A stretch of 51,695 bases of DNA from Candidatus Desulfofervidus auxilii (lineage in GTDB: Bacteria; Desulfobacterota; Desulfofervidia; Desulfofervidales; Desulfofervidaceae). Location of the stretch: the NCBI RefSeq assembly GCF_001577525.1, contig NZ_CP013015.1, positions 797,159 to 848,853 on the forward strand. Direction: 5' to 3'. The position numbers and the translations under genes were made by a program. Below the pieces are notes generated by a model, which worked only from the letters and a program-made list of their open reading frames with translations, was not told the DNA's origin and did no database searches. Below are positions 48,165 to 51,695 of the stretch, piece by piece; position 1 is the stretch's first letter, and every line of letters starts with the position of its first letter.

Positions 48165-48192
48165 TTGGCTACTATATATTATATGTTATAAT
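48165..48192 (+). promoter_or_regulatory. tadA promoter, implying a leaderless transcript
   Basis: TTGGCT (48165-48170), a 16-base spacer and a perfect TATAAT (48187-48192). Exactly six bases lie between the -10 and ATG 48199, so transcription should start on the start codon. No Shine-Dalgarno is present. Confidence 0.65.
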
Positions 48193-48198
48193 GGTAAA

Positions 48199-48699
48199 AT
48201 GGAGAAAGATAAAGATATATATTTTATGGAAATAGCATTACAGGAGGCCTTAAAAGCAGAAAAAGAGGGAGAGGTGCCCGTAGGGGCAGTGGTGGTAAAA
48301 CAAGAAAAAATCTTAAGTATAGCTCATAATCAAGTGATACAATTGGCTGACCCTACTGCCCATGCGGAGATACTTGCCTTGCGTCAGGCTGCAAAAATCA
48401 CAGGAAACTATCGCTTGCTAGATACTGAGCTTTATGTTACTATAGAACCGTGTTTGATGTGTGCAGGGGCAATTATGCAAGCAAGGATAAAACGTTTAAT
48501 ATTTGGTGCTTTTGAACCTAAAATGGGAGCCTTTGGCTCTGTTTTAAACATAAAAGATTTTAATTTAAATCACTATTTGGAAATAAAAAGTGGCATCATG
48601 GCCCAAGAAGCACAGGCCTTGATGCAAGCATTTTTTAAAAAGCGGAGAGGTACCGAAGTGGACGTAACGGGGGCGACTCGAAATCGCCTTGTCCTGTGA
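48199..48699 (+). CDS. tadA: tRNA-specific adenosine deaminase TadA, reading frame ending inside a tRNA gene
   Basis: The frame is 166 residues. The zinc site is HAE (H55, E57 in DPTAHAEILAL) and PCLMC (C85, C88). It deaminates the wobble A34 of tRNA-Arg(ACG) to inosine. The normal family C-terminus is reached near ALMQAFFKKRR (about residue 148-150), but no stop codon occurs there. The frame continues 56 bases into the tRNA-Ser gene that starts at 48644 and stops at 48697-48699, adding a tail GTEVDVTGATRNRLVL that is a translation of the tRNA. tRNA processing of a shared transcript would remove the stop codon from the tadA message. Confidence 0.95.
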   Translation: MEKDKDIYFMEIALQEALKAEKEGEVPVGAVVVKQEKILSIAHNQVIQLADPTAHAEILALRQAAKITGNYRLLDTELYVTIEPCLMCAGAIMQARIKRLIFGAFEPKMGAFGSVLNIKDFNLNHYLEIKSGIMAQEAQALMQAFFKKRRGTEVDVTGATRNRLVL

Positions 48700-48739
48700 T
48701 GAGCAGGACACGTGGGTTCGAATCCCACCCTCTCCGCCA
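48644..48739 (+). tRNA. tRNA-Ser, anticodon CGA
   Basis: The acceptor stem is GGAGAGG/CCTCTCC. The D stem is CCG/CGG, and the anticodon stem GGCGA/TCGCC has the loop CTCGAAA, so the anticodon is CGA (reads UCG). A long variable arm (TGTCCTG/CAGGACA) marks serine. The T arm is GTGGG-TTCGAAT-CCCAC, followed by discriminator G and encoded CCA. Its first 56 bases overlap the tadA reading frame. Confidence 0.96.
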
Positions 48740-48740
48740 G

Positions 48741-48833
48741 GGAGAGATGCCCGAGAGGCCGAAGGGGCACGACTGGAAATCGTGTGTGCGTTTAAAAAGC
48801 GCACCGTGGGTTCGAATCCCACTCTCTCCGCCA
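48741..48833 (+). tRNA. tRNA-Ser, anticodon GGA
   Basis: The acceptor stem is GGAGAGA/TCTCTCC. The anticodon stem CACGA/TCGTG has the loop CTGGAAA, so the anticodon is GGA (reads UCC and UCU). The long variable arm is TGTGCG...CGCACC-like, the T arm GTGGG-TTCGAAT-CCCAC, then G and encoded CCA. It lies one base after the first tRNA-Ser and shares most of its T arm, so the two probably arose by duplication. Confidence 0.96.
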
Positions 48834-48849
48834 TAAGAGAATAAAAACT

Positions 48850-48951
48850 GGTAGCTGGGCCCTGTGCAACGACAACCTGCGAACCCCGTCAGGCCCGGAA
48901 GGGAGCAGCGGTAAGTGGGAGCTGTCGTGTGTTGCAGGTAGCCTGGCTGCC
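48850..48951 (+). ncRNA. ffs: Signal recognition particle 4.5S RNA (small SRP RNA)
   Basis: The conserved domain IV is present: GTCAGGCCCGGAAGGGAGC followed by AGCGGTAAG, with the symmetric and asymmetric loops recognised by Ffh and the GGAA tetraloop. The flanks pair to form one long hairpin: GGTAGCTGGGCC at the 5' end with the 3' GGTAGCCTGGCTGCC, and GCAACGACAACC with the GCTGTCGTGTGTTGC side. Length is about 102 bases. Placement between tRNA-Ser and dnaX is common in bacteria. Confidence 0.96.
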
Positions 48952-48961
48952 GCTCTACAAT
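48932..48961 (+). promoter_or_regulatory. dnaX promoter inside the 3' end of the SRP RNA gene
   Basis: TTGCAG (48932-48937), 18-base spacer, TACAAT (48956-48961). Seven bases separate the -10 from ATG 48969, again predicting a transcript starting at or next to the start codon. Confidence 0.5.
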
Positions 48962-48968
48962 ATGAAGC

Positions 48969-50513
48969 ATGTCTTATTTAGTATTAGCCAGAAAATGGCG
49001 TCCTCAATTTTTTAGGGAAGTAGCTGCCCAATCTCATGTAACCATTACACTCCAAAATGCCATTAAAGCTAACCGCGTGCCTCATGCCATGGTTTTTTGT
49101 GGCCCCAGAGGAGTTGGGAAAACCACTGTTGCCCGTATTCTAGCTAAGGCATTAAATTGCGAAAAGGGACCTGCTCCAGAACCTTGTAATCAATGTCCTT
49201 CCTGTCGCGAAATCGCTCAGGGCACTTTCATGGATGTCTATGAGATGGATGGGGCCTCCAATAGGGGTATAGATGAAATTAGAGAAATTAGGGAAAATGT
49301 AAGGTATCTTCCTTCTAGCAGTAGGTATAAAGTTTATATCATTGATGAAGTCCATATGTTGACCAAAGAGGCCTTTAATGCCTTACTCAAGACCCTCGAA
49401 GAGCCACCACCCCATGTAATCTTTATTTTTGCCACTACCGAACCGCATAAAATTCCATCTACTATCATGTCCCGCTGTCAGTGCTATCCCTTTCGCAGAA
49501 TAAGCAATCAAATTTTGCACCAAAGGCTTAAAGAAGTAATCACTCAAGAAAAAATAAAAATTGACCAAGAGGCACTTTGGATTATCGTTCGTGCTGCAGA
49601 TGGAAGTTTACGTGATGCCTTAAGCCTTCTTGACCAGGTAGTTTCTTTTTCTGCACCCCCTATCCAAGGGGAGCACGTGCGGGCCATTCTCGGTCTATTT
49701 GATACCCAGTTGATACTTCAAGCCTTAGAGGCTATTTTAAAAACCGATATAAATAGAGTAATGGAAATCGTTTCCCATATTTGTGAACAAGGAGAAGACC
49801 TAAAGGAGTTTTACCGTCAGCTAGTCATGTATTGGCGTCATCTGTTAATGATCAAAATCAATCCTCAAACTTCATTGGTAGATTTACCAGAACACGAACG
49901 TGCCCAATTAGCCACTCTGGCTCAAATTTATCCCCTGACACATCTGGAACAACTATTTGATATACTGTTGGCTGAAGAACAAATATTGCGAAATTCCACT
50001 CAACCTCGTTTTGTTTTAGAGGCTCTTTTAATTAAACTCACAGAGTTTGCTAATATTGTTCCTATTGATGTGATTATAAAAAAACTTAGCCATGTTGAAT
50101 TAAAAACCAAACGCTCAAAAGAATCTGAAAGGCCTGAGGAAGAAAGTGAAAGGGAATCTTTAATTCAGGAAGATATAATCTTTAAAAAGGCCTTTTTAAA
50201 GAGTTTAAAAAGAGAATGTCCCATTCTAGTGCCTGTTTTAGAAAATGCCCCTGTAATCCGGAATGATACTACTATAACCTTAAAAATATCCAAAACAAAA
50301 GCGAAGTTACTAGAGGACAAGCAATTGTGGCAAATATTAAAAAATTGTTTGGGCAAGGAAGGTGAAATTATTATTGATACCAATCACAAATTTAAAGAAA
50401 ATCACCCCAAAATAGATACAATAGAAGAAAACAAGAAGGGATTGGATTTTTTAAAGCAAGTATTAAAAATATTTGGAGGTGAAGTAGTTACTCCATCACG
50501 GAGGAAACAATGA
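48969..50513 (+). CDS. dnaX: DNA polymerase III subunit gamma/tau
   Basis: The product is 514 residues. The clamp-loader ATPase has Walker [10 protein letters not shown] (45-53), zinc cysteines C64, C73, C76 and C79 (LNC...PCNQCPSC), Walker [10 protein letters not shown] and the sensor SRCQCYPF. The C-terminal part (about 375-514) is short and charged, so the product is close to a gamma/short-tau form. Its stop overlaps the ybaB start by 4 bases. No slippery A-rich frameshift signal typical of gamma production was recognised. Confidence 0.96.
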
Positions 50514-50818
50514 ACATCAACCAATTAATGAAACAAGCTAAAAAAATGCAGGCTAAAATGGCAGAGTTGCAAGCAGAACTAGAGCAAAAAACTGTAGAAT
50601 CTTCTGCAGGTGGTGGAATGGTAAAGGTAATAGCAAACGGGAAACAGGAAATTTTATCTATTACTATAGACCCAGAGGTAGTCAATGCAGAGGATATAGA
50701 AATGCTTCAAGACCTCATTTTAGCGGCAGTGAATGATGCCCTGAGAAAGGCCCAAGAAATGGTGGCAGAAGAGATGAGTAAAATAACTGGAGGATTAAAG
50801 ATTCCTGGTTTATTCTAA
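50510..50818 (+). CDS. ybaB: YbaB/EbfC nucleoid-associated protein
   Basis: The product is 102 residues. The pattern [24 protein letters not shown], a Gly-rich turn (SAGGGMVKV) and an [17 protein letters not shown] helix are typical. It binds DNA as a dimer. It overlaps dnaX by 4 bases, and a GGAGG-like site is seen before the ATG inside dnaX. The usual third member, recR, does not follow; repeat module A begins 70 bases later. Confidence 0.96.
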
Positions 50819-51380: not shown

Positions 51381-51695
51381 TTAAGCAGCCTTCTCCATTT
51401 CCTCCTTTAAGATATAGTCTCGGTCTTCTTTTAACATCTTAAAAATAACTTTTATCAATTGTCTAGCAAGGCAGCGCAAGGCATGGTTATGCTCTTTCCC
51501 TTCAGTCCGTTTTTTAGCATAGTAAGTAGCGGATTCTGAAACATACCGAATTGTGCAGCCCGCAATTTCAATCATAGTTGCTTTACATATCTTATTAGCC
51601 TTATATACAACTCTTGTCCTTTTGTGTTTACCAGACTCATCATCTATACAGGCTACACCACAATAGATCGCAAGTTGCCTCTCGTTTTTAAATCT
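51381..51695 (-). CDS. IS110-family transposase, C-terminal part
   Basis: The last 104 residues are visible; the frame is open to the window edge, beyond the first ATG at 51575. RFKNERQLAIYCGVACIDD followed by ESGKHKR matches the start of the C-terminal serine (Transposase_20, IS116/IS110/IS902) domain. The serine of the ESGK motif (codon at 51633-51635) is the likely second catalytic residue. The typical helical end follows: NKICKATMIEIAGCTIRYV, then KEHNHALRCLARQLIKVIFKML. The true start is outside the window. Confidence 0.9.
   Translation of the reverse strand, partial: RFKNERQLAIYCGVACIDDESGKHKRTRVVYKANKICKATMIEIAGCTIRYVSESATYYAKKRTEGKEHNHALRCLARQLIKVIFKMLKEDRDYILKEEMEKAA

Follow-up and report, generated by a model that had tools for sequence, protein, structure and literature searches.

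Overlap of tadA with the gene for tRNA-Ser(CGA) in Candidatus Desulfofervidus auxilii and related bacteria

Bacterial overlaps between a protein gene and a tRNA gene have, in the open-access literature searched, been described only for selB-selC, where tRNA-Sec is nested in, or overlaps, the selB open reading frame (Mukai 2021, PMC8124441); the same work presents its case as the first in which a bacterial ORF contains a nested tRNA (PMC8124441). The genes tadA and tRNA-Ser(CGA) form a second, unrelated pair, and no published tadA/tRNA-Ser overlap was found in that literature.

The two pairs are alike in that an ORF enters an intact downstream tRNA on the same strand without a stop codon, and in that some relatives possess ordinary stops while the overlap is conserved among others. 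Partial forms are known for selB-selC as well, in which the conserved stop lies within the tRNA (nucleotides 46–48, in Dyella and Luteibacter), and the overlap described here is also partial, ending at nucleotides 54–56. For both pairs it is predicted that the message would become a nonstop mRNA once processed by RNase P. The differences begin with the gene and the tRNA, which are other ones, and no action of TadA on the overlapped tRNA is known. In the lineage analyzed here an invariant residue with which the enzyme reads its substrate is encoded by the tRNA, and the overlap occurs in three reading frames and in many families of one phylum. Nesting of the whole tRNA, the main form for selB-selC, was seen in no more than three genomes, all of them from Aminicenantes.

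Mitochondrial tRNA punctuation and overlaps are similar in that excision of the tRNA defines or destroys the end of the neighboring message. Mitochondrial stop codons are commonly completed by polyadenylation. This differs from the present locus, where an A added after ...AAAAAGC gives no stop and where Arg150 would be lost. The tRNA-Lys inside cox1 of Armadillidium is an example of a mitochondrial overlap (cited in PMC8124441).

The third related arrangement is the conserved bacterial cluster tadA - (tRNA-Ser) - SRP RNA - dnaX - ybaB. Its order and strand are shared by the window, the whole stretch of 51,695 nucleotides analyzed from the sulfate-reducing bacterium Candidatus Desulfofervidus auxilii. 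Unlike the window, most of the genomes examined have a tadA stop of their own, often 0–30 nt before the tRNA.

The tadA frame and the tRNA that it enters

The tadA ORF (48199..48699, + strand) encodes a tRNA adenosine-34 deaminase of 166 amino acids. The protein scores 180.3 bits and passes the curated NCBIfam equivalog cut-off of 150. The HAE and PCxxC zinc/catalytic motif and the FFxxRR C-terminus are all present, and the residues H55, A56, E57, P84, C85, C88, F145, F146 and R150 are invariant in the TadA alignment (n = 41). As the only TadA of the genome, the enzyme presumably has to be made. Two further deaminase matches differ from it, one being nearest to ComEB-type dCMP deaminases and the other a 375-codon frame that is RibD-like in appearance.

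The tRNA-Ser(CGA) gene (48644..48739, +; ARAGORN and Rfam, 51.8 bits) has an intact 7-bp acceptor stem and an encoded CCA, and the RNase P cut is expected between 48643 and 48644. The tadA stop, TGA at 48697–48699, is the first of two tandem in-frame stops, TGA TGA (48697..48702, +), and corresponds to nucleotides 54–56 of the tRNA, in the loop of the variable arm. These coordinates bear out the earlier note on this DNA, which had reported that no stop lies between the TadA domain and the tRNA and that the frame ends 56 bases into the latter. Where that note placed the end of the domain before the tRNA, however, it slightly understated the overlap, since the conserved domain itself already enters the tRNA. 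The codons for R149 (CGG, 48643–48645) and R150 (AGA, 48646–48648), together 48643..48648 on the + strand, comprise base -1 and nucleotides 1–5 of the tRNA: CGG straddles the 5' end and uses nucleotides 1–2, while AGA is made of nucleotides 3–5. In the lineage of the window the acceptor stem of the tRNA encodes Arg149-Arg150 of TadA. Alignment to TadAs of solved structure places R150 at the position of R153 of the E. coli enzyme and R149 of the S. aureus enzyme, a residue that contacts the anticodon and is thought likely to read G36 (PMC10586758).

The 16 codons that follow (48649..48696, +) derive from the tRNA sequence and encode the tail GTEVDVTGATRNRLVL, which the earlier note had read correctly. 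In the predicted structure of TadA the last helix stops at residue 149, and the pLDDT of the tail is 58, falling to 47. A role of the tail as a functional peptide was considered and is unlikely, since its sequence differs between the frames used and it is predicted to be disordered.

Among the 43 tRNAs of this genome, only tRNA-Ser(CGA) is entered by a credible gene of at least 100 codons. Short frames of 68–82 codons enter two genes for tRNA-Thr(CGT) and one for tRNA-Asn(GTT) (G000:C1:2370481, C1:900869 and C1:205081); these are probably not genes.

The genes downstream all lie on the + strand, as do tadA and tRNA-Ser(CGA). One nucleotide after tRNA-Ser(CGA) comes tRNA-Ser(GGA) (48741..48833, +; ARAGORN/Rfam), followed by the bacterial small SRP RNA gene ffs (48853..48951, +; 78 bits), dnaX (48969..50513, +) and a ybaB/ebfC-like gene (50510..50818, +), the last two being ORFs identified from their sequence and from the gene order tadA - tRNA-Ser(CGA) - tRNA-Ser(GGA) - SRP RNA - dnaX - ybaB. 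A transposase-like frame (51381–51695, -), which looks like the C-terminal part of an IS110 protein, follows ybaB where recR is expected.

That a tRNA-editing enzyme should be paired with a tRNA had been called curious. The pairing is less so because the substrate lies elsewhere: bacterial TadA edits tRNA-Arg(ACG), the gene for which is at C1:1863195, away from tadA. Activity of TadA on tRNA-Ser(CGA) is not expected, the wobble base of this tRNA being C.

Distribution of the overlap and evidence for its translation

Conservation of the missing stop in related genomes, a check proposed in the earlier note, was found in every genome examined from the order Ca. Desulfofervidales. In all six genomes, that of the window and the five others examined, tadA ends at tRNA nucleotides 54–56, though the flanking and loop sequences differ among them; among the five relatives there is none with an ordinary stop, and nothing in the comparison restores a stop before 48644. 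The same missing stop is present in Syntrophorhabdaceae and in further families.

Two samples of the phylum were compared. The tadA frame overlaps the tRNA in 41 of the 92 tadA-tRNA-Ser(CGA) pairs from a first batch of 129 loci, a biased one, as the tail was part of the query by which its genomes were ranked. In the second sample, spread evenly over families (88 genomes, 50 families), tRNA-Ser adjoins tadA in 57 of the 88 genomes, and the tadA stop lies inside tRNA-Ser in 17 of the 88, from 10 of the 50 families. Many relatives have no overlap, and in some families ordinary stops precede the tRNA by a few bases.

All three frames are used among the overlaps. In frame A, which is that of the window, tadA ends at tRNA nucleotides 54–59 in most genomes; in the second frame (GEVPKRS) its stop is the TAA in the D-loop, nucleotides 22–24, and in the third it ends at nucleotides 47–49 or 32–34. 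More than one type of overlap may occur within a single family. On a FastTree phylogeny of TadA cores the overlap state changes at least 18 times, as opposed to 35–41 times with shuffled labels, which shows that it is inherited within clades and has also been repeatedly gained or lost. Judged from these sequence comparisons, the overlap is genuine, and an ancient close pair of tadA and tRNA-Ser has given rise to it many times over.

Full nesting was found in Aminicenantes, where 106 genomes have a TadA match and 30 loci were examined. In three metagenome-assembled genomes (L171:5352-5927; L172:5254-5835, -; L176:2966-3544, -) the whole tRNA-Ser(CGA) lies within the tadA frame, which ends in the D-loop of the following tRNA-Ser(GGA). 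The spacers after tRNA-Ser(CGA) are 32, 35 or 38 nt long, differing in steps of three, and the tadA frame is open throughout, while the other two frames contain 2–5 stops across tRNA and spacer. Among the overlapping loci, only these have no stop within the first tRNA. Most of the other Aminicenantes loci have an ordinary stop before the tRNA, many of them at a distance of 0–56 nt; in one the frame ends at nucleotides 45–47.

Whether the overlap is translated can be judged from the stops themselves. In the set of 92 pairs, 41 of them overlapping, the tRNA contains an in-frame stop in 18 of 18 combinations of family and frame. In unrelated tRNA-Ser the three frames have a family-averaged background of 0.83, 0.09 and 0.43, and the resulting product of about 10^-5.7 is approximate, as the families are related, the family weighting is crude and pre-existing stops may predispose to overlap. 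In one family with frame A the stop is TGA, TAA and TAG in three genomes, respectively, being maintained as the loop changes; in another, TGA TAA has become TTG TAA, and the next in-frame TAA takes over as the stop. More generally, frame A retains a stop through changes in the loop and even in the stem. The stems of the variable arm, inspected by eye, stay paired through the loop changes, so that the tRNA appears to be kept functional as well. A tRNA that always supplies an in-frame stop, above background and persistently as the loop changes, points to translation of the overlap. Where a stop was present in the tRNA frame beforehand, on the other hand, lineages may simply tolerate the loss of the tadA stop, which would produce much of the same pattern with no later selection.

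Transcription, predicted RNase P cleavage and alternative readings

The only good promoter-like site lies before tadA. It reads TTGGCT-16-TATAAT (48165..48192, +), with TG before the second hexamer, and is a consensus match only (10/12); the RNA start predicted from it is at or near the tadA ATG. Its TATAAT ends 6 nt before the ATG (48165–48201), and the tadA mRNA may for this reason be leaderless; some relatives also show AT-rich sites near the start. From 48524 to 49000 the + strand has no sigma-70-like promoter of at least 9/12, and a search for a terminator between tadA and the tRNA gave none. The best site of the window inside tadA before the tRNA is poor. Across 77 loci, the 45–50 nt or so just 5' of the tRNA showed no promoter enrichment over other windows of tadA. 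The scan covered sigma-70-like sites; a weak promoter, or one for another sigma factor, may lie inside tadA.

A good site before tadA, combined with no promoter or terminator between the genes, favors a shared transcript. Such a transcript, proposed in the earlier note, is the simplest reading of the locus, and we infer it from these features, while the promoter of the tRNA's own inside tadA, offered there as the alternative, finds no support in the sigma-70-like scan.

On balance it is fairly probable that tadA and tRNA-Ser(CGA) truly overlap and share one transcript, with compaction as the likely cause. Ribosomes on the unprocessed transcript would unfold the tRNA, terminate at the stop in the variable loop and yield functional TadA. 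Once the tRNA folds, RNase P would cut at its 5' end and leave an upstream RNA ending in ...TTTTTTAAAAAGC. As the tRNA encodes both the stop and the invariant R150, cleavage would remove both from the message. No further TadA would be made from that RNA, and stalled ribosomes would pass to tmRNA, as established RNase P and tmRNA biology predicts. Each RNA would serve as message first and as tRNA later, the reverse order being impossible. The pair is a natural system in which to test the competition of ribosome and RNase P on one RNA.

The origin of the overlap would lie in compaction of the ancient close pair, and its occurrence in three frames with unrelated tails points to repeated compaction. 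The 5' sequence of the tRNA, GGAGA, when preceded by A or C, encodes the C-terminal Arg-Arg that TadA requires and can replace the enzyme's own codons, which may explain why the frame of the window is common. Base -1 was also considered as possible evidence that RNase P recognizes this tRNA differently. It has to be C or A for arginine in this frame, and C is common there without overlap, so the base is uninformative on recognition.

Compaction might also have occurred without any interplay of the two genes, the tRNA being made mainly from a promoter inside tadA and TadA from a minority of long transcripts, so that cleavage is irrelevant to the TadA level. We regard this version as possible, with a modest chance of being correct. 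The use of three frames with differing tails, which leaves the tail without a specific job, would suit it, as would the absence of the overlap from many relatives and the normal demand of cells for tRNA, which far exceeds that for TadA. The promoter scan speaks against it, since the region before the tRNA is no better than the rest of tadA and the good site precedes tadA.

Starting again from overlapping genes on one transcript, it may be asked whether maturation of tRNA-Ser(CGA) is a physiological off-switch for tadA. The competition between ribosome and RNase P on one RNA would then set TadA output, RNase P activity or tRNA folding would determine the TadA level, and trans-translation would clear incomplete TadA. 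The earlier note had made a similar connection, of which the molecular part is supported, in that cleavage would strip the message of its stop and of R150 and that tmRNA is encoded in the genome; the regulatory link is unsupported. A switch of this kind has also been put forward for selB-selC (PMC8124441). TadA has another tRNA as its substrate, however, the many changes on the TadA tree show the arrangement to be often gained or lost, and other families have ordinary stops close to the tRNA. A regulatory role of the overlap is possible but unsupported, and the off-switch itself is improbable; if true, this form of control would have evolved more than once in the course of Desulfobacterota evolution.

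A -1 slip on the TTTTTT before the tRNA, leading to a TadA that ends before the tRNA, is rejected as very improbable. The -1 frame does read TAA after TTT TTT, both in the window and in most of the family, but the product would lack the invariant R150, no stop follows the slip in another genome of the order (G005), and there is no canonical slippery heptamer in register. An error of sequencing or assembly that deleted the stop, which the homopolymers TTTTTT AAAAA just before the tRNA could suggest, is refuted by the relatives: the other five genomes of the order have the same arrangement, as do several families, some of them without homopolymers.

The locus is also a warning to annotators, as pipelines may trim or drop CDS ends of this kind. 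Antisense ORFs on the - strand (48565–48970) lie over both tRNA-Ser genes and are AERVGFEPT/GEGGIRTH-like, resembling familiar spurious proteins of mis-annotated tRNA regions.
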